NCBI RefSeq assembly: GCF_002252705.1
Contig: NZ_NQLA01000005.1
Location: forward strand, 62,001 to 126,000
Source: Vulcanococcus limneticus LL
GTDB lineage: Bacteria > Cyanobacteriota > Cyanobacteriia > PCC-6307 > Cyanobiaceae
Length of the DNA: 64,000 nt
Direction: 5' to 3'
The stretch's first letter is position 1. Each line of letters opens with the position of its first letter. Below the pieces are notes generated by a model, which ran no database searches, had not been told where the DNA came from, and worked only from the letters and a program-made list of their open reading frames with translations. This document shows positions 43,651 through 57,576 of this stretch, in pieces. Position numbers and translations under genes: made by a program.

Positions 43651-44553
43651 TCAGGCGTTGGCGGCCAGCCAGGCGGCCAGGTCGGCCGGGCCATGGAAGT
43701 CGAGCAGGGCGTCGGCCAGGGCTTCCAATTGCTCCAGCGGCAGGGCCTGGATCTGGGCGGTGATGGCGTCGCTGAGGGGGCCGCAGCGGCGGTTGAGTTG
43801 GCGGAGTGTAACAGCCGCTTCGCCTTCCTGGCGGCCCTCCTGTCGGCCCTCCTGGCGGCCCTCGGCAAGCCAGTCCTGAACGGCGCGGGTGTGGCGGATT
43901 TCTTCGCGGGGGATGCCGGCAATCACCATGATTTGCTCCTCGGTGAGTTCAGGAAACCGTTGCACCAGCATAGGCAGCACAACCGTGTCTAGATCAGGCC
44001 GCCTGGCCAGAATCTGCTGACTGCTGGCCGCCAGCTCGCTCTCTGGGCGCACCGGCAAGGTGAGCAAGTTGAGCAGGGGGTCGAGATCTGGCTGCTGGCT
44101 CAGCTCCTCCAGGCTGATCCAGTGCACCTCCTGCAAGAGCACCTTCAGGAGTCTGGGCAGCTTGGTGGGGCCGAGGCCGATCCGCTTGTGAGGCGTGATC
44201 AGCACAACTTCCAGGTGTTCCAGCTGTGGGTGCCGCTGCAGAAAGCGGTAGCTCTGCGCCGCCAGGCGGTGGTGGAAGCCTGGATCCGGGTGCATCTGCA
44301 CCTCCAGCAGCACCACAGGGAAGTCGGCGCAGCCGATTTCAGCGCAGCCGGTGCTTTGGCGGGGCCACAAAACACCATCGAGGCGGTGGCTCAGCTCTTT
44401 AATCTCCAGTGCCTCAAAGCGGTAGAGGCGATCGCCGGGGGCTGTCGGGTCAAGTCCCAGTGCGGTGGCGGCGGTGGCTGAGCCGGGCAGCAGTGAGCGG
44501 ATCAGATCGGGGGCGCTCTGGAAGACGCGGTAGTACCAGCGGTCGGTGTTCAA
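43651..44553 (-). CDS. Rpn/DUF2887-like PD-(D/E)XK nuclease-family protein
   Basis: 300 residues. N-terminus DRWYYRVFQSAPDLIRSLL, then FEALEIKELSHRLDGVLWP and CADFPVVLLEVQMHPDPGFHHRLAAQSYRFLQ: the ExQ-type nuclease motif of transposase-like PD-(D/E)XK proteins common and multicopy in cyanobacteria. Mid-protein EGRQEGRQEGRQEG is a fourfold peptide repeat, encoded by a direct DNA repeat near 43840. The C-terminus (LRQLNRRCGPLSDAITAQIQALPLEQLEALADALLDF) matches DUF4351. Related Rpn proteins stimulate recombination. It has its own terminator. Confidence 0.87.
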   Translation of the reverse strand: MNTDRWYYRVFQSAPDLIRSLLPGSATAATALGLDPTAPGDRLYRFEALEIKELSHRLDGVLWPRQSTGCAEIGCADFPVVLLEVQMHPDPGFHHRLAAQSYRFLQRHPQLEHLEVVLITPHKRIGLGPTKLPRLLKVLLQEVHWISLEELSQQPDLDPLLNLLTLPVRPESELAASSQQILARRPDLDTVVLPMLVQRFPELTEEQIMVIAGIPREEIRHTRAVQDWLAEGRQEGRQEGRQEGEAAVTLRQLNRRCGPLSDAITAQIQALPLEQLEALADALLDFHGPADLAAWLAANA

Positions 44554-45600: not shown

Positions 45601-46517
45601 TCAGCCATCGGCCCCCTCTCCCACACACCAGACGTTCAGCCCCGCCGCCCGCGCTGCCGCCGCATCGGCCTTGGCCCGCGCATCAAACAGCCAGGCCGGC
45701 GATGCGCTGCTGTTGCCAGCTGTTGAGCGCCACTACCTGCTGCCAGTAGGCCGCCACCTCCTGGAGGCCGTAGTGGCCGCAGAGGTACACCAGGTTGAGG
45801 ATGTCCTTCTGGAAGCAGCTGCCGCCAAAGCCCGGACCGGCCTTGAGAAACTTGGAGCCGAGGCGGGTGTCGCTGCCGATTGCCCGGGCCACCTCCTGCA
45901 CAGCCGCTCCGGTGGCCGTAGATCGCCGCCAGCTCCTCGATCGCTTCGGAATCCTCGCCCCCGATCAGCACCCGATCGGGGGCCTCCAGATCGGCGATGG
46001 CCGTGCCCTCCGCCAGGAACTCCGGGTTGGAAAGCACGGAGAAGGTTTTGCCATCCGCAGCCTGGGCGGCGCTGAGGATGGTCTGCACCGTTTCGGCAGT
46101 GCGCACCGGCAGGGTGCTCTTCTCCACCACGATGGTGTGCCCCTGGGCGGCGGCGGCCACCTGGCGGGCGGAGGCCTCGATCCAGCGCAGGTCACTGGCC
46201 TGGCCGGCCCCCACACCCTTGGTCTTGGTGGGGGTGTTCACCGAGAGGAACACCGTGTCTGCCCCGGCGATCGCCCTCTCCACCGCAGTGGTGAAGTGAA
46301 GGTTGCGGCACCGCGCTCAGCCCACCACCGCATCGAGCCCCGGCTCATACACCGGCAGCTGGCTGCGGTCGGGGTCGTTCCAGGCGGCGATGCGTTCGGC
46401 GTTGAGGTCCACCACCGTGACCTGGATGCCGGGGCAGCGATCGGCGATCACCGCCATCGTGGGGCCGCCCACATAACCGGCGCCGATGCAGCAGATGCTG
46501 CGAATCGTTGTGCTCAC
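45601..46517 (-). pseudogene. Shattered UDP-glucose 6-dehydrogenase
   Basis: Starts GTG 46517 with [33 protein letters not shown] (NAD Rossmann loop) and stops after [11 protein letters not shown]. The next frame, from about 46300, gives TTAVERAIAGADTVFLSVNTPTKTKG, then VVEKSTLPVRTAE and LSNPEFLAEGTAI, ending at IYGH. There a deletion of some 55 residues joins to [39 protein letters not shown] (catalytic Cys present) in a third frame. A second large deletion removes the C-terminal UDP-binding domain except for [21 protein letters not shown]...GADG and a TGA at 45601. So at least three frame breaks and two deletions. It overlaps the uxs stop by 4 bp (GTGA), showing the original operon. Pieces quoted are not contiguous. 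Confidence 0.92.
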
Positions 46518-47458
46518 GCGCCCAGGGCCTCGCGGAAGTAGGCGATGGTGGGCTCCAGCCCCTGCTCCAGCGGCACCGTGGGCTGCCAGCCCAGCTCCTG
46601 CTGCGCCAGCGCGATCACCGGTTGGCGTTGCAGCGGATCATCCGCCGGCAGCGGTTGTTCGATCAGCGGCAGCTCCGGATTGATCCGAGAGCGCACCAGC
46701 TCCGCCAGCTGGCGGATCGTGAATTCACCGGGGTTGCCGATGTTGATCGGGCCGGTGTGCTCTCCGTTCATCAGCCGGATCAGGCCCTCCACCAGATCGT
46801 CCACGTAGCAGAAGCTGCGGGTCTGGCTGCCGGTGCCATAGAGGGTGAGGGGCAGGCCTTTCAGGGCCTGCACGATGAAGTTGCTCACCACCCGGCCGTC
46901 GTCGGGCAGCATGCGCGGCCCGTAGGTGTTGAAGATCCGCGCCACCCGAATCTCGGTGCCGTGCATGCGCCGGTAGTCGAAACACAGGGTTTCGGCGATG
47001 CGCTTGCCCTCGTCGTAGCAGCTGCGCAGGCCGATCGTGTTGACGCAGCCGCGATAGCTCTCCGGCTGGGGGTGCACCTCGGGATCGCCAAATACCTCAC
47101 TGGTACTGGCCAGCAGCAGCCGGGCCCCCACCCGGCGGGCCAGGCCCAGCATGTTGTAGGTGCCCAGGAAGCTGGTTTTGGCCGTCTTGATCGGATTGAA
47201 CTGGTAGTGCACCGGCGAGGCCGGACAGGCCAGGTGCCAGATCCGGTCCACCTCCAGCCGGATCGTTTCGGTCACGTCGTGGCGGATCAGCTCGAAGCGC
47301 GGATGGCCGATCCACTGGCGGATGTTCGCCTTGCGACCGGTGAAGAAGTTGTCGAGGCAGAGCACCTCCTCGCCGGCTGCCATCAGCCGGTCCACCAGGT
47401 GCGATCCCACGAAGCCGGCGCCGCCGGTGATCAGGTTGCGGGGGAGGGAGGCGGGCAT
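46514..47458 (-). CDS. UDP-glucuronate decarboxylase (UDP-xylose synthase)
   Basis: 314 residues from the ATG at 47458; upstream codons lie in a dispersed repeat. SDR signatures: [52 protein letters not shown], and catalytic [13 protein letters not shown] (YxxxK), [34 protein letters not shown]. Converts UDP-GlcA to UDP-xylose with internal NAD recycling. Its substrate would come from UDP-glucose dehydrogenase, whose adjacent gene is destroyed; a second copy elsewhere would be needed. Confidence 0.94.
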
Positions 47459-51204: not shown

Positions 51205-51714
51205 TTAGCGGCCCAGGTCATAGAAGCGCCGGCCGTCGTTGCGCCGCCGGTCGTGCTGGCGGGCAGCGCGGAGGCTGAACTGGCTTACCGAAGGGTTCGA
51301 CACCAAGGGGTCAACATGGGCCACCTGCTGCCACAGCTCCCGGGGCGCCCAGTGCACCGTGTAGGTGGCCGGATCCTGCTTGACCACATGGCACCAGTGG
51401 CTCTGACCACAGGCAGAGCAGAACAACTCCTCCAGCCACTCGTTGGGCAGCACCAGCACCGGATGGGCCTGGATCACCAGCCGCGCCTTCTTGTCGGTCA
51501 TGCCCCGCTGGCGGAGCTCGTCGGCGCTCAGCAGATGCAGAAAATACCGGGGGCCCTGGCCGTAGACCCGCTGCTCGGGATGGACAGGACAGAACAGCCG
51601 TCGGCGCCTGGAGCGTCCGCGGCGGCGCCTGTCCTGCGACGGCTGGCGCTCAGCGCCAGTTTCCGCGGCGTCCATGCCGACAGGAATAGAGGCAGAGTTA
51701 GATGTAACAACCAT
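51205..51714 (-). CDS. Hypothetical protein with a Cys/His metal-site pattern
   Basis: 169 residues. After a basic, low-complexity start (RRRRGRSRRRRLFC) comes CPVHPEQRVYGQGPRYFLHLLSADELRQRGMTDKKARLVIQAHPVLVLPNEWLEELFCSACGQSHWCHVV. Cys-x2-His and Cys-x2-Cys plus His-Trp-Cys-His form a likely zinc ribbon split by about 55 residues. The rest (TYTVHWAPRELWQQVAHVDPLVSNPSVSQFSLRAARQHD) looks well-ordered. I do not recognise the family, though the pattern suggests a conserved cyanobacterial protein. Located between gmd and the phosphatase, same direction. Confidence 0.72.
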   Translation of the reverse strand: MVVTSNSASIPVGMDAAETGAERQPSQDRRRRGRSRRRRLFCPVHPEQRVYGQGPRYFLHLLSADELRQRGMTDKKARLVIQAHPVLVLPNEWLEELFCSACGQSHWCHVVKQDPATYTVHWAPRELWQQVAHVDPLVSNPSVSQFSLRAARQHDRRRNDGRRFYDLGR

Positions 51715-51893: not shown

Positions 51894-52400
51894 CTACTGG
51901 GGCTGATCTCCCCATGTCGGTGCAGCTTCGCTCGCCAGGCCGCACAGGGCCTGCCATTGGCTCGGCAAGGGGCTGGTGCCCGGATGAATCTGCATCAAAT
52001 AGTCCAGCGCCTGCAGGGGGGAGAACCCCTGCGAGCGCACCAGCCAGGCCATGCACACCAGGGGTGAGCGCTCCATCGACGCCAGGCAATGCACAAAAAC
52101 AGGACCCGCCTGCTGTAGACGGGTCAACACATCGAGGGCCTGCAGCAGGTCTGCAACCTCGATCGACTGGTCGGAGCGATGGTCCGGAAGCACCAGACGG
52201 GTCGTGACGAAGCGATCCAGGCCCGGCGGTGCTGCGGCTTCCGCCTCGCTGCAGAGTGAGAAGATGGCGGCCAGGCCCTCACGCTCCAGCAGCTCACAGT
52301 GTTCAGGTCGTCGCGGAGCAGGTCCGAGCGCCAGTCGCTGGCGAATGACCCAGCTGATCCGGAAGCGAGGCCCTGAATGACGACCAGCCGAGTTGAGCAC
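51894..52400 (-). CDS. Dual-specificity-type protein phosphatase
   Basis: 168 residues. The P-loop HCLASMERSP matches HCx5R(S/T), with a general-acid Asp in the preceding VLPDHRSDQSIEVADLLQAL. Fold elements EHCELLEREGLAAIFSLCSEAEA and CMAWLVRSQGFSPLQALDYLMQIHP complete a DSP/cyclin-dependent-kinase-inhibitor-3-like domain. In export loci a phosphatase normally dephosphorylates the Wzc tyrosine kinase; usually it is a low-molecular-weight Wzb or PHP enzyme, not this type. It is 4 bp downstream of the Wza-like gene, supporting that role. Confidence 0.85.
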   Translation of the reverse strand: MLNSAGRHSGPRFRISWVIRQRLALGPAPRRPEHCELLEREGLAAIFSLCSEAEAAAPPGLDRFVTTRLVLPDHRSDQSIEVADLLQALDVLTRLQQAGPVFVHCLASMERSPLVCMAWLVRSQGFSPLQALDYLMQIHPGTSPLPSQWQALCGLASEAAPTWGDQPQ

Positions 52401-52404
52401 CGAT

Positions 52405-53577
52405 TCAGTTGGCTGTATTGATCAGGCGAAACAGGGTCCAGATGTTCACCAGTCCCGAGATCGGTGTGCTGATGGCACCGATGGCATCGGAGGCAACAGC
52501 CAGAGAGGAACGGTGCACGATGACGGTGTCGTTGTCCCGCAGGGGTGGATTCTGGGCATTGGAAGCTCCCTGGGCCAGATCCAGCCTGAACCTCCGGCGT
52601 GTCACGCTGCCATTACGGTTCAGGCGCACCAGTTCAATGTTGGTCTTCTTGCCCCGCCAGGTTTCAAGACCACCGGCAGCCAGCACCGCCTGCATCAGCG
52701 GGGTACTGGCCGGTAAATCCAGCCTGCCTGGCGTCTTGACCTCGCCGATGACATTCACGTTGATCACCTGGGGGGAAAGATTGGCCGCCGCCAGCTCAAT
52801 GGCCTCGGCAACCGGTTCAGCCGCCCGACCTACGCGAATGGTGTCGCCATCAAACAGCAGTGGATTCTGCAATTGATCCCCCTCACTGACCAGGGCGAGT
52901 AGATCCAGGCGGGTGCGCTTGAAACTGGGAGGATCACCAGGGAGGCGTCGTTGTAGCTCGACCGTGCGGAGATCGGCATTGAGCGTGATGCCACCGGCCT
53001 TCTGAATCGCATCCACGATCGACGGGAGCCCGCTGACAGTGATCGCGGGTCCACCTTCGGTCTGGGTGGTCTCATTAGCAGACATCGTATAGATTCCCGG
53101 GCGCTCCACTTCGCCCACTAGCGCTACCCGCATCGGGCGTGGCCTGACCACCCGTAACAACAGTTCCGGCCGCTGCAGCTGGCGGGTGTAGAGCTTGGTG
53201 AGCCACTGGCTGGCCTGCGACAGAGTCAGGCCCACCACCCGGGCGGAGCCGATCAAAGGCAGCGGAATCGTGCCGTCGTTCAGGACCTCCAGTGTGCCAG
53301 ACAGCTCGGGGGCGTCAAAGAATTTCAGCTCCAGCTGGTCTCCAGGGCCTAAAAGATAGGCATCATGTTGTAGCTCAACTGGGGCAGGCACGGCCGATGG
53401 TGCCGCTCGAGTGGCTGGGGCCACAGCAGTCCGGGTCGTGACTGCCGGCACTGCTGCCGCTCCTGGTCGAGCCTGGGCCCCTGTGGTGGCACTGCCATAA
53501 ATGAGGAGGGCCGTGATTCCAGCGGCCATCCGGTGCTGGCGGCGTTGCTGCGGATCAACACGCGATAGCCGAAGCAC
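52405..53577 (-). CDS. Wza-like polysaccharide export protein
   Basis: About 390 residues from a GTG at 53577, which gives an N-terminal signal peptide with a basic n-region (RVDPQQRRQHRMAAGITALLIYG) and cleavage near AQA-RPG; an ATG at 53529 is the alternative. The polysaccharide-export domain starts AYLLGPGDQLELKFFDAPELSGTLEVLNDGTIPLPLIG; SLBB beta-grasp domains follow (RVALVGEVERPGIYTM, VINVNVIGEVKTPGRLDLPASTPLMQAVLAAGG). It forms the outer-membrane channel. No lipobox Cys is apparent. Divergent from the Wzc gene, sharing the 95-bp spacer. Confidence 0.9.
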   Translation of the reverse strand: MLRLSRVDPQQRRQHRMAAGITALLIYGSATTGAQARPGAAAVPAVTTRTAVAPATRAAPSAVPAPVELQHDAYLLGPGDQLELKFFDAPELSGTLEVLNDGTIPLPLIGSARVVGLTLSQASQWLTKLYTRQLQRPELLLRVVRPRPMRVALVGEVERPGIYTMSANETTQTEGGPAITVSGLPSIVDAIQKAGGITLNADLRTVELQRRLPGDPPSFKRTRLDLLALVSEGDQLQNPLLFDGDTIRVGRAAEPVAEAIELAAANLSPQVINVNVIGEVKTPGRLDLPASTPLMQAVLAAGGLETWRGKKTNIELVRLNRNGSVTRRRFRLDLAQGASNAQNPPLRDNDTVIVHRSSLAVASDAIGAISTPISGLVNIWTLFRLINTAN

Positions 53578-53672
53578 CGGAAGATTGAGCGGGGGGGACC
53601 AAGTGTCCCACGCTCCCTCGCTGGCTGCCAGAGGCGCCGGTACATTGCGGCCAATGCCCACAGCCGGTCGCG

Positions 53673-56234
53673 ATGTCCAACCTGATCCCCAGGCCCGGCA
53701 CATCCCCGGTATTGGTCGCCAGCGCCGATGGCCAGTCCCTGGCGCCACCGCTGGTGTCGCTGCCAGAGGCTCAGAGTGAGGAGATCAACCTAGGAGAGCT
53801 CTGGGCCGCCATCAGGCGCCGCCGCCGCCTGGTGGCCGTGACGGCGGCTGTCTGCCTGCTCATCACTGCCGCCTACACCGCCAGGCAGCGTCTGTTCAAT
53901 CCCGTTTACGAGGGCTCGTTCAACCTGCTGATCACCGATCCGATCAGCGCCCAGACCGAGGGGGGCGGCAGCGGCAGCGGGACCCAGGGCAACGTGATCG
54001 AACAGCTGGCCCGCAACACCTCCAATGTGGACATCCCCACCCTGATCGAGGTGCTGCGCAGCCCGCTGCTGCTGGACCCGATCGCCCGCCGCTTTGACAC
54101 CTCGGCGGCCGACCTGGCAGGGCGCATTGCCATCGTCACCGGCGGCGATCGCCGCCAGAGCGCCGAGGGGGTGCTCAAGGTGGCCCTGACCGGCACCAAC
54201 CCAGTCCAGGCCAAGCAGCAGCTGCAGGCCCTCAGCCAGTCCTACCTCAACTACTCCCAGCAGCAGCGCCAGCAGCGCCTGGCGGAAGGCATCAAGTTCC
54301 TGAATCGCCAGGCCCCCCTGCTGCAGGCCAAGTCCAACGAGATCCAGGGCGAACTGGCCCGCTTCCGCCGCACCAACAACCTGCTGGAGCCCAATCTGGA
54401 GGGTGGAGCCCTCAGGGAGCAGGTGGCGGCGCAGCAGGTGCAGCGGCGGGGTCTGCAGGCCGAGCGGGCCCGGCTGCAGTCCGTGCGGCGGGGCATTGAG
54501 GACGGCAGTCTCACGGCAGTGGGGTTCCAGGAGGCTGTCAGCACCGGCCCTGGCGGCGCTGAGAGCGGTGGCGGTAGCGGTGGCGGTAACGGCGGCGGGG
54601 TGTCGATCACCAGCCGCAGCCAGTCGATGCTGCAGCAGCTGGCCGATCTGGAGAAGCAGCTGGCCGAGACCCGGGCCCGGTACACCCCCTCCTCGTCGAT
54701 GGTGCGCGGGCTGCAGGCCCGCCGCGACCGCCTGGCTGACCAGGTGCGCAGCAGCCAGATTGAAGCCGTGGATGCGGCCCTGGCCCTCAATGCCAGCCGG
54801 CTGGCGACCAACCAGGGTGAGATCAACCAGCTCAACAGCGCCTTCCGGCTGCAGCCGGCCCTGATCAAGCAGTACGACGATCTGCAGCAGCGCCTCAAGA
54901 TCGCCAACGACAACCTGGCGGCTTTCCTGCAGACCCGTGAGACGTTTCAGCTGGAGATCGCCCAGCGCACCGTCCCCTGGAAGGTGATCGCCGAACCGCA
55001 GGTCAACCCGGAGCCCGTCAAGCCCTCAGTGCCGCGCAATCTGCTGCTCGGCGGCCTGCTGGGGCTGGTGGCCGGTGCCGGTGCTGGCCTGCTTCGGGAC
55101 CGGCTGGACCATGTGTTCAACAAGCCCCAGGACGTGCGCGAGGAACTGAATGAACCACTGCTGGGCCATATTCCCCACATTTCCTACCTCAGCGATGTAC
55201 GCCGGGATGAGCGCTTCCTGCTGGAGGAGCTGGACCGCACTGCCGCCGAGCCCAGGGACAGCGCGACTGGCGACAGCACCAGTGCCAGCAAGACAACCCG
55301 AGCGTCCTACGTCGCCAGTCCTGCGGCAGGACGCTCGGGAGATGAGCGCCAGCTGCGCTACCAGCGGTTTTTCTATCAGGAGGCCTTCCGCAACCTCTAC
55401 ACAAGCCTGCGCTTCCTCAATGCGGAGCGTCCGTTGCGCTCCGTGGCCATCACCAGTTCGTTGCCGGCCGAGGGGAAAAGCCTGGTGAATGTGCTGCTGG
55501 CCAAAACCCTCTCCGAACTGGGACAGCGGGTACTGCTGGTGGATGGGGACATGCGCAAGCCCCAGCTGCACAAGCGCCTGGGCATGGACAACCTGCGCGG
55601 ACTCTCCAACCTGCTTGCCGGTGATGTGAGCCGCTGGCAGGAGGTTGTGCAACCGGTGGCCGGCTACCCCAACTGGAGTGTGATCACCGCCGGCCTGCGC
55701 CCCCCCGATCCCACCCGCCTGCTGAGCTCGCAGCGCATGCAGCAGCTGATTTCAACCCTTGCCGCCTCCGGGGACTTTGACCTGATTCTCTACGACACCC
55801 CTCCCGTACTGGGGCTGGCCGATACCGCCCTGCTGGCGGAGCATCTCGATGGACTGATTCTGATCGTGAGCCTGGAGCGGGTGGATCGCAGCCTGCCGCG
55901 GGAAGCGATCAGTCGGATTCGCTCGGCCCGTGCCCAGCTGCTTGGCGTGGTCACCAATGCCGTACGCGAGGACCCATCGACAAACCACGCTTACGGCTAT
56001 CGCTATGGCTATCGATACGGCTACCGCTATGGCTATGGCTCCTACGATTACCGAACGGCCTATAGTTATTACGCAGAAGATGATGGGGCTTCCGATGGCC
56101 CCTCCCGATCGGGCCTGGCCTCAACTTCACGGTCATCAACGTCCACCACTGCACAGCCGGAGCGGCCGTGGCGCCGCGGCCTTGCGGGCCTGCAGCGCCA
56201 GCTGCGCCGTGGCCTGAACTGGCTGGACCGCTGA
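53673..56234 (+). CDS. Wzc-like polysaccharide co-polymerase and BY-kinase with a Tyr-rich tail
   Basis: 853 residues. A Wzz segment with TM1 (LVAVTAAVCLLITAAYTA, about 52-70) and TM2 near 455-475 (LLLGGLLGLVAGAGAGLL) encloses a coiled-coil region with a Gly/Ser-rich insert (about residues 290-310). Cytoplasmic kinase: Walker A SSLPAEGKSLVN near 597-604, Walker A' LLVDGDMRKPQLHKR, Walker B ILYDTPPVLGLAD. The C-terminus (about 772-805) is a cluster of some 16 tyrosines built from a four-residue YGYR repeat. That is where BY-kinases autophosphorylate. It controls chain length and assembles with Wza. It is 22 bp ahead of the outer-membrane protein gene. Confidence 0.94.
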   Translation: MSNLIPRPGTSPVLVASADGQSLAPPLVSLPEAQSEEINLGELWAAIRRRRRLVAVTAAVCLLITAAYTARQRLFNPVYEGSFNLLITDPISAQTEGGGSGSGTQGNVIEQLARNTSNVDIPTLIEVLRSPLLLDPIARRFDTSAADLAGRIAIVTGGDRRQSAEGVLKVALTGTNPVQAKQQLQALSQSYLNYSQQQRQQRLAEGIKFLNRQAPLLQAKSNEIQGELARFRRTNNLLEPNLEGGALREQVAAQQVQRRGLQAERARLQSVRRGIEDGSLTAVGFQEAVSTGPGGAESGGGSGGGNGGGVSITSRSQSMLQQLADLEKQLAETRARYTPSSSMVRGLQARRDRLADQVRSSQIEAVDAALALNASRLATNQGEINQLNSAFRLQPALIKQYDDLQQRLKIANDNLAAFLQTRETFQLEIAQRTVPWKVIAEPQVNPEPVKPSVPRNLLLGGLLGLVAGAGAGLLRDRLDHVFNKPQDVREELNEPLLGHIPHISYLSDVRRDERFLLEELDRTAAEPRDSATGDSTSASKTTRASYVASPAAGRSGDERQLRYQRFFYQEAFRNLYTSLRFLNAERPLRSVAITSSLPAEGKSLVNVLLAKTLSELGQRVLLVDGDMRKPQLHKRLGMDNLRGLSNLLAGDVSRWQEVVQPVAGYPNWSVITAGLRPPDPTRLLSSQRMQQLISTLAASGDFDLILYDTPPVLGLADTALLAEHLDGLILIVSLERVDRSLPREAISRIRSARAQLLGVVTNAVREDPSTNHAYGYRYGYRYGYRYGYGSYDYRTAYSYYAEDDGASDGPSRSGLASTSRSSTSTTAQPERPWRRGLAGLQRQLRRGLNWLDR

Positions 56235-56256: not shown

Positions 56257-57576
56257 ATGTCCCCTGGTTCCCCCCTCGTTCCCTCCGCCTTGGTCCTGCT
56301 GCTGGCCGGCAACCTGCCGGCAGCCCTGGCCGGGCCACCGGTGTGGGTGCCAGTGGAGACCCTGCCGCCCCTGCCCCCCCTGAGTATCCAGGCCAAGGGC
56401 CAGTCCAGTCGTCAGCTGGTCTGGGAAGTGGTTCCCGCAGCCCCAGTCCTGGCGGCGCCACCGGCCGATGCCCAGCCGGTGGCCAGGAGTTCAGCGGTGC
56501 CCACCGGCCAGCTGCTCTGGGAGCCGGTACTGCCGGGAAATGGCATTGACCTCGAGGCCGAGCTCGCCAAGAAGCCTGCCCCCTCGGCCCTGACGATCCT
56601 GCCGCCGGCTCCGAGTGGGCCGACCTTTGCCAATCTCCGCGCCCTCTGGCGCGACGATGACTGGAAACCCCAGATCAGCAATCTGGTGCCGGTGGGGTTC
56701 GGACCCCAGGGTCCGATGCTGAGCCTGGGGGGACGAGGGATCGACTGCACCACCGGTGCGGGACGCTGCCGGGTGCCGGAGTCCTACAACGCCTGGCGTG
56801 ATGGCATCGAACGGCAGGGGGATGCCTATCTGAACACAGCCTTTGGCTTTGGCGATTCCCTCAACCTGGTGGGCATCGTCATCACCAACACCACCCAGGG
56901 CGTGTCTGGATCGGGCCCTCGCGGGCAGGATCCGTTCCTGGGCGGCAACATGACGGGCTTTCACATCACCCGCAACTTTGGCTACGACACAGCGATGCGC
57001 CTGGGTGTGGAGAACTGGATCCGTTGGGACTGGCCGCAGGCTGACCTACAGAAAAATGCCTATGGCGTGATCAGCCAACGCATCCGTCTCGGCTCCACCC
57101 CGGAGGGATGGTTCCAGAATCTCTATCTCACCGCCGGTGCTGGCAACGGGGCCTTCCGGCCCCTGGACAAGCAGATCGGCGCCCAGATTGCTGCCCAGAA
57201 GGCTGCTGGCTGCTACACGTTCAATTATGTGCCCCCCAGCAGGATCGATTGCTCCGCCAATACCCGTAGCCGAGCGGTGCGTGATGGCGGTGATTTCGGC
57301 AACTTGAACTTCATCGGTGCGGCCGCCATTGAGGTGGTGGATGGTCTGCACCTGATCGGCGAGTGGAGCGGCAGAAACCTGAACATGGGACTCAGCATCC
57401 GGCCTTTTCCCGAACTCGGCCTGGTCATCACCCCTATGTTTGAGAACATCATCCGCAACAGTGATTACGGCAATGGCATCGAGATCCCCGGGGCGCCCTC
57501 CATTGCCATGCCGGATAGCGTCCTGACGGACCGGGTGCGTTTCTCCCTCCAGGCCAGTCTGGAGTTCAAGTTCTGA
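56257..57576 (+). CDS. Outer-membrane beta-barrel-like protein of unknown function
   Basis: 439 residues. A signal peptide (LVPSALVLLLAGNLPAALA) precedes a Pro-rich region (about 20-130) with two repeats of the form RQLVWEVV / GQLLWEPV. From about 135 alternating hydrophobic strands with aromatic girdles (GDAYLNTAFGFGDSLNLVGIVITNTTQG, MRLGVENWIRWDWPQ, LNFIGAAAIEVVDGLHLIGEWSGRNLNMGLSIRPF) end in SLEFKF, the terminal-Phe pattern of barrel proteins. I do not recognise the family. Following wzc closely (22 bp) it may help polysaccharide export or anchor it at the surface. Confidence 0.82.
   Translation: MSPGSPLVPSALVLLLAGNLPAALAGPPVWVPVETLPPLPPLSIQAKGQSSRQLVWEVVPAAPVLAAPPADAQPVARSSAVPTGQLLWEPVLPGNGIDLEAELAKKPAPSALTILPPAPSGPTFANLRALWRDDDWKPQISNLVPVGFGPQGPMLSLGGRGIDCTTGAGRCRVPESYNAWRDGIERQGDAYLNTAFGFGDSLNLVGIVITNTTQGVSGSGPRGQDPFLGGNMTGFHITRNFGYDTAMRLGVENWIRWDWPQADLQKNAYGVISQRIRLGSTPEGWFQNLYLTAGAGNGAFRPLDKQIGAQIAAQKAAGCYTFNYVPPSRIDCSANTRSRAVRDGGDFGNLNFIGAAAIEVVDGLHLIGEWSGRNLNMGLSIRPFPELGLVITPMFENIIRNSDYGNGIEIPGAPSIAMPDSVLTDRVRFSLQASLEFKF

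Follow-up and report, generated by a model that had tools for sequence, protein, structure and literature searches.

A Wzc-type tyrosine autokinase with a variable tyrosine ladder, a conserved C-terminal cap and a linked dual-specificity-type phosphatase in a cyanobacterial exopolysaccharide locus

The window analyzed here is a stretch of 64,000 nucleotides from Vulcanococcus limneticus LL (Cyanobiaceae; contig NZ_NQLA01000005.1, positions 62,001 to 126,000), and it carries an intact Wzc-type kinase gene in a cyanobacterial exopolysaccharide locus. The gene lies on the forward strand, from an ATG at 53,673 to a stop codon that ends at 56,234, in the frame first proposed for it, and encodes a protein of 853 residues. 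Pfam, NCBIfam and solved relatives identify this protein as a PCP-2a tyrosine autokinase (BY-kinase), a kind of protein already known. The Wzz chain-length domain (PF02706, 29.4 bits, cut-off 25.5) is fused to a BY-kinase domain (TIGR01007, 131 bits, cut-off 108.05), which is the arrangement by which PCP-2a proteins are recognized, and E. coli Wzc entries such as 7nhr rank first among solved relatives. Together with the catalytic residues, these matches agree with the initial annotation of a Wzc-like BY-kinase. The enterobacterial Wzc equivalog model (NF008568) scores 146.3 bits against a cut-off of 1068, and by sequence the protein is a relative of enterobacterial Wzc rather than an equivalog of it; in its own genome it is the sole match of its type. 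Upstream of wzc and divergent from it, two genes lie on the reverse strand. One encodes a Wza-like outer-membrane polysaccharide export protein (52,405–53,748; start uncertain, with the longest ORF overlapping the wzc start), whose Poly_export (62.4 bits) and SLBB (65.4 bits) scores are both above their cut-offs. The other begins 4 nt after the wza ORF and encodes a dual-specificity-type phosphatase (DSP; 51,894–52,400). The locus also holds genes for a GDP-mannose dehydratase, epimerase-type sugar enzymes and glycosyltransferases. It is because wza, the sugar enzymes and the glycosyltransferases surround wzc that we assign the region to exopolysaccharide synthesis, and the kinase probably controls the export of a surface polysaccharide.

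To place the kinase among its relatives, we compared three sets of proteins: 60 distinct ones of lineage A, which belong to the same family; 21 of lineage B; and, from further families in the class, 27 (L124-L150), two with truncated tails and three with long extensions. A set of 30 phylum loci was left out of the counts, as a tail could be read in only part of them and some of those tails were in a wrong frame. A wzc match at E ≤ 1e-20 is present in 93 of the 300 family genomes; each species is represented by a single genome, so that all comparisons are between species. A contig search for relatives found two (L016, a Prochlorococcus MAG, and L017, which is partial). Catalytic residues were mapped by alignment to E. 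coli K-12 Wzc (b2060), and tails were extracted from the alignment. The Walker A motif SLPAEGKS (residues 596-603; 55,458–55,481, forward strand) contains the catalytic Lys602, the counterpart of E. coli Lys540, which is kept in 59/60 family rows and in all 27 outside rows. The Walker A' motif DGDMR (residues 624-628; 55,542–55,556, forward strand) is equally conserved in the family, with D624 in 60/60, D626 in 59/60 and R628 in 60/60 rows. Overall, K602, D624, D626, R628 and D708 align with E. coli K540, D562, D564, R566 and D642, and each is kept in 59 or 60 of the 60 rows. Two other positions depart from the E. coli enzyme. Within the ExxRxxR motif (E. coli 508-514), E570 and R573 are present in 60/60 rows; Tyr or Phe replaces the final Arg in 55/60, and in 23/27 outside rows. 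This stretch is tied to phosphatase recognition in the account of E. coli Wzc (PMC11986026), and the changed Arg would fit a cyanobacterial kinase that works with another type of phosphatase. In E. coli, E675 of the tyrosine pocket has been proposed to keep phosphotyrosine out; Leu takes its place in 56/60 family rows, an alignment-dependent correspondence in which the pocket glutamate is not found. An AlphaFold model of the kinase built with no alignment is poor (mean pLDDT 47), and tail placement and cap docking are beyond its quality.

The tail of the kinase has three parts: a Y-x-Y ladder that changes rapidly in length through duplication and loss of YG units, a variable linker and a conserved, basic, Trp-containing amphipathic cap. 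The ladder is encoded on the forward strand by a 12-bp repeat at 55,992–56,039, which bears out the initial report of YGYR-type repeats near 56,000; three YGYR units and one YGYG unit create an unbroken Y-x-Y ladder of eight tyrosines (residues 774-788). Tandem Repeats Finder places the repeat at 55,995–56,040 (period 12, 3.8 copies, 79% matches, score 64). The whole Tyr-rich segment spans residues 774-800 (55,992–56,072, forward strand), with an AYSYY block at its end, and is followed by a linker that is hypervariable in the family alignment (residues 801-831; 56,073–56,165, forward strand). The protein has 26 tyrosines, 13 of them in this segment and none after residue 800. The initial annotation described about 16 tyrosines in the last 80 residues and a protein ending in the repeat; the count is 13, and 53 residues, the conserved cap included, follow the last tyrosine (800 of 853). 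The clustering is far from what composition would give, with 13 tyrosines in a 30-residue stretch against a maximum of 7 in 2000 whole-protein shuffles, and when the Tyr-rich segment alone is shuffled, an unbroken eight-tyrosine ladder at every second residue appears in 0.6% of cases. At the DNA level, no perfect hexamer run in the window's tract exceeds two copies, and all differences among the three YGYR units fall on synonymous third positions; the protein pattern has been kept while the DNA repeat decayed. For both reasons the window copy is no obvious hot spot now: we rejected the tract as a site of current slippage on the length of its longest perfect run, and it looks interrupted and at present stable.

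Among relatives, both the number of tyrosines and the length of the ladder vary. Tails hold 3-17 tyrosines in lineage A, 9-20 in lineage B and 0-13 outside the family, and the longest Y-x-Y ladder has 1-10 steps in lineage A (median 3, window 8), exactly 7 in 21/21 lineage-B rows and 0-3 in the 27 outside rows. These ranges indicate that long ladders belong to the family, that the window is among the longest, and that lineage B is fixed. According to a review of BY-kinases, tail tyrosines are poorly conserved in both number and arrangement (PMC12220298), so variation in number as such is already known. The repeat number, for which the initial annotation had called for a comparison of related isolates, proves not to be constant when the comparison is run between related species. 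Close pairs differ by 14 against 17 tyrosines (L019/L023, core identity 93%), 15 against 11 (L049/L051, 92%) and 9 against 5 (L076/L080, 88%), and DNA alignments of all three pairs place the length change in frame and inside the tract. Equal counts are also seen, with 9 and 9 in L061/L065 (90%) and 8 and 8 in L068/L074 (89%). Perfect hexamer runs of at least three copies occur in 17/60 lineage-A tails (up to ten copies), 0/21 lineage-B tails and 0/27 outside tails. Since such runs are found in 17 of 60 tails against none of 48 comparison tails, hexanucleotide slippage of the YG unit between species is well supported by the sequences. Among the best cases are L002 and L011, with 8 and 9 hexamer copies, from the window's own genus; L021, L011, L002 and L076 are genomes with perfect hexamer runs. 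Adjacent synonymous codons within the tract also agree above a within-tail permutation (lag 1: Gly, P = 0.001; Tyr, P = 0.04), and the same permutation gives no signal for codon agreement at lag 3. The slippage suggested in the initial annotation therefore stands between species, where perfect runs and sister pairs speak for it, but not for the window's own tract, with its run of two.

How much of this variation is functional can be read in more than one way. The YG tract could be a low-complexity, slippage-prone spacer, in which the few conserved tyrosines of the AYxYY block at the segment end are the functional substrates and repeat number is nearly neutral. The hexamer runs, as a sign of slippage, would be expected of such a spacer, as would the breadth of the lineage-A range, reached with the gene itself retained. 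In lineage A, moreover, the tract changes from species to species between two recurring elements, the D-x(3)-AYxYY block and the cap, that stay recognizable. Some relatives have only 3-5 tyrosines and a ladder of 1-2, which means that a long ladder is not required. A neutral spacer fits less well, however, with the retention of Tyr at nearly every second position in long tracts, with the restriction of differences among the window's YGYR units to synonymous sites, and with a ladder of exactly 7 throughout lineage B. On balance, we consider the spacer explanation doubtful, though still a serious one.

Beyond the linker, the protein ends in a basic amphipathic cap (residues 832-853; 56,166–56,231, forward strand) with NWLDR at its end, defined from the family alignment, the amphipathic moment and a low-confidence model. 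A terminal W[LIVF]x(1-4) is found in 58/60 lineage-A rows, 51 of them in the form W[LIVF][DEN], and in 0/27 outside rows; the two lineage-A exceptions end in TFFSG. In lineage B, W[LIVF] lies within the last 25 residues in 20/21 rows, mostly followed by basic residues. The last 18 residues of lineage-A proteins have an amphipathic moment above the shuffle mean in 60/60 rows (mean z 2.16, against 0.12 for a control segment) and a mean net charge of +3.6, and in a model of low confidence (mean pLDDT 47) the tail scores best over a helix at 832-852. The probable role of the cap is to anchor the far end of the tail, either at the membrane or at a neighbouring kinase. It is not general in cyanobacteria, because the Y-rich region of Synechocystis Wzc is described as its last 25 residues, with no cap beyond (PMC6562117).

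Given its conservation, the cap and not the ladder might be the functionally important new part of the tail, acting as a membrane- or partner-binding helix that positions it. The near-invariant terminus of lineage A, its counterpart in lineage B and its absence outside the family all point in this direction, as do the amphipathic moment and the helix of the modelled tail; DSP linkage outside the family, where no cap is seen, argues against it, and we regard this explanation as possible but rather unlikely. That same linkage shows that the cap is not simply a dock for the phosphatase, and a role as DSP docking site was dropped. The initial annotation mentioned neither the cap nor the linked DSP, which are the stronger findings of the analysis.

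The assignment of the phosphatase draws on PF00782, linkage and co-occurrence. PF00782 (DSPc) scores 39.3 bits, above the curated cut-off of 33.5, and a Pfam search gave no match to PF01451 (LMW-PTP). The P-loop HCLASMER (HCX5R; 52,068–52,091, reverse strand) contains the invariant residues H104, C105 and R111. HCX5R is present in 66/66 DSP homologues and the candidate general acid D73 in 64/66, in a set that includes a few near-duplicates from overlapping loci. Sequence relatives in the PDB are 25xa, DUSP23 (2img) and Tk-PTP (5z59), with which the protein has HCX5R and the Asp candidate in common, whereas the HCxAxxER loop and the genomic tie to wza and wzc are distinctive. A fold search with a single-sequence model (pLDDT 65.5) returned no match at E ≤ 0.001, with DUSP5, ShufPTP and Tk-PTP among the weak ones; because the model is weak, the DSP call rests on Pfam, the motif and the PDB sequence matches.

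Wzc and the DSP occur together. Across the 300 family genomes, 79 have both, 14 Wzc only, 4 DSP only and 203 neither (Fisher P = 3e-52, a statistic that ignores relatedness). A Wzc match lies no more than 2.5 kb away at 59 of 84 DSP places, and at 20 of these 59 the DSP is directly downstream of it, on the same strand and at most 250 bp off. The remaining places comprise 14 on a different contig from Wzc, 5 at a distance of 2.5-10 kb, 4 farther than 10 kb and 2 in genomes with no Wzc match. Among 60 neighbourhoods selected for the presence of a DSP, the gene may be paired in tandem with wza, which is the window's arrangement; it may follow wzc in tandem; or, in lineage B, it lies behind wzc in convergent orientation. 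It can adjoin wza even where wzc is elsewhere (L204, L206, L207). The DSP and kinase-domain trees share a deep split, that of lineage B together with the genus-mates' type A2 (SH-aLRT 100 and 99), and where both Wzc types are found in one genome (G222 and G134), each stands next to a DSP of its own type. Outside the family, DSP homologues are found in 42 sampled genomes of the class (46/195 in all), and 10 of the 31 DSPs with a placed Wzc lie within 5 kb of it, which makes the Wzc-DSP pairing older than the cap. Several figures count against the DSP part of the mechanism set out below, namely the 14 of 93 Wzc genomes with no DSP match, the 23 of 84 DSP places that are off-contig or more than 2.5 kb away (besides the 2 in genomes with no Wzc match) and, outside the family, the low share of 10 in 31 close to a Wzc.

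A different candidate for the cognate phosphatase is the unlinked LMW-PTP, in which case the DSP would act on another target of the locus, e.g., a glycan or lipid phosphate. An LMW-PTP is encoded in the window's own genome (contig C23, with the wzc locus on C19) and in 262/300 family genomes, and in Synechocystis the LMW-PTP Wzb is reported to dephosphorylate Wzc in vitro (PMC6562117). We think this improbable, since most genomes that lack Wzc also encode the LMW-PTP, which is unlinked to Wzc in 28/28 cases compared (8 on the same contig at a distance of at least 90 kb, 20 on another contig), while it is the DSP that follows Wzc in presence, place and tree and that occupies, beside wza or wzc in the family loci, the slot filled by wzb in E. 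coli K-12.

The best-studied point of comparison is E. coli Wzc (K-12 b2060; K30 7nhr), which shares with the window protein the Wzz domain, the Walker A, A' and B motifs and a C-terminal Y-x-Y tyrosine cluster, along with a wza-phosphatase-wzc neighbourhood. The two differ in that K-12 Wzc has 5 residues after its last tyrosine, whereas the window protein has 53 with a conserved cap; in that the E. coli ladder is short, whereas the window's has 8 steps; in the pocket Glu675 and the last ExxRxxR Arg, which the window family does not keep; and in the phosphatase neighbour, which is DSP-type in the window and in K-12 an LMW-PTP, wzb, between wza and wzc. Synechocystis Wzc (Sll0923) is likewise a cyanobacterial PCP-2a kinase, with a Y-rich C-terminus reported to be phosphorylated, and its Wzb (Slr0328) is an LMW-PTP encoded in a separate four-gene operon (PMC6562117). 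Cyanobacterial Wzb has been assigned by the LMWPc model (PMC4594306), and the phosphatases of BY-kinases named in a review are LMW-PTP and PHP (PMC12220298). LMW-PTP (Wzb, PF01451) and PHP (CpsB) share the role expected of the window's phosphatase, dephosphorylation of the tyrosine tail, which here would fall to a PF00782 protein with an internal HCX5R. In titles and opening lines of abstracts of the open-licence literature, we found no description of a DSP partner of BY-kinases, of tandem-repeat tails or of picocyanobacterial Wzc; nor did we find in that literature the variant that combines a variable ladder, a conserved cap and a DSP partner.

In E. coli, the tail of Wzc is described as entering the active site of its neighbour and being phosphorylated from the C-terminal towards the N-terminal side, with the tyrosine two residues before the active-site tyrosine held in a pocket and Y-x-Y acting as a ratchet, and the octamer as breaking up after the fourth phosphate (PMC11986026; PMC8285477). 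The window's eight-tyrosine ladder repeats this pattern, and a longer ratchet is thus its natural reading. We propose that the window kinase is the co-polymerase and autokinase of a Wzx/Wzy-type exopolysaccharide exporter in a picocyanobacterium-like genome, in whose octamer each tail would be fed into the active site of the neighbour and phosphorylated tyrosine by tyrosine. Every added ladder step would bring further phosphorylation events before the octamer breaks up or while it does so, and ladder length could in this way serve as an evolvable timer for polymerization. The DSP encoded with wza or wzc would reset the tail, the role of LMW-PTP Wzb in E. coli. By analogy with E. coli, we lean slightly towards such in-trans phosphorylation of the ladder as a ratchet that times octamer break-up, with the linked DSP resetting it. 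Because the pocket E675 is matched by Leu, the ratchet detail may not carry over. Counting against the mechanism are this Leu, the short ladders of some relatives, the activity of Wzb on Synechocystis Wzc and the mild effect of truncation there: Synechocystis Wzc lacking its last 25 residues is reported to give normal released polysaccharide and 19% more capsular polysaccharide (PMC6562117).

On a bolder reading, the ladder would be an evolvable counter, with hexanucleotide slippage changing the number of ratchet steps, the helix clamping the end and the DSP resetting the tail, so as to tune exopolysaccharide length between species; we judge this whole chain distinctly unlikely. In E. coli Wzc, the extent of phosphorylation and not any single tyrosine is reported to matter (PMC11986026), a result compatible by analogy with an effect of number; it gives no evidence that the natural number sets length.

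How cells set the length of exported polysaccharide is an open question. In the model put forward from work on E. coli, octamer stability depends on how many tail tyrosines carry phosphate (PMC11986026). The cyanobacteria compared here provide a graded set of natural ladder lengths in a kinase that is otherwise conserved, with near sisters 3 to 4 tyrosines apart and one lineage whose ladder is fixed at 7, so that the count idea could be put to the test across species that already exist. The presence of the linked DSP points to a third class of phosphatase partner for BY-kinases, in addition to LMW-PTP and PHP. If the counter reading is true, ladder length would tune the length of exopolysaccharide between species.

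In the second Wzc lineage, lineage B (loci L171-L190 and L210), the ladder, or unbroken run of Y-x-Y tyrosines in the tail, is 7 in all 21 proteins, and the tail is approximately 140 amino acids long in most. A RLNDYGYEYGYYYHYAY block is fixed in most of these tails, and one of them, that of locus L174, is apparently frame-shifted directly past this block. Within the ExxRxxR motif, the final Arg position corresponds to Wzc residue 576 (55398-55400, + strand), where the Wzc alignment has Tyr or Phe replacing this Arg in 55 of the 60 family rows and 23 of the 27 rows from other cyanobacterial families.

Elsewhere in the window, a UDP-glucose dehydrogenase remnant at 45636-46560 (− strand) looks like a broken or mis-assembled gene, with an in-frame stop close to its start and a frame change further on; its open portion scores above the UDPG_MGDP_dh_N cut-off. 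A DUF2887/DUF4351 protein (43651-44553, − strand) owes a REGRQEGRQEGRQEG-like stretch to 3.5 copies of a 12-bp repeat (43822-43863, 90%).

Close to the DSP gene lies a 169-aa ORF (51205-51714, − strand) that carries the Cys/His clusters CPVH and CSACGQSHWCH and has no match in Pfam or NCBIfam. Relatives 59-66% identical occur close to wza/DSP/wzc in 6 of the 60 fetched neighbourhoods, which were picked for holding a DSP (L159, L160, and L199-L202). Immediately 3′ of wzc, a 439-aa protein (56257-57576, + strand) lacks a Pfam or NCBIfam match and a convincing one in the PDB, and has relatives of 30-41% identity at the same locus in 7 of these 60 neighbourhoods. This protein is possibly an outer-membrane barrel, standing where Wzi would.
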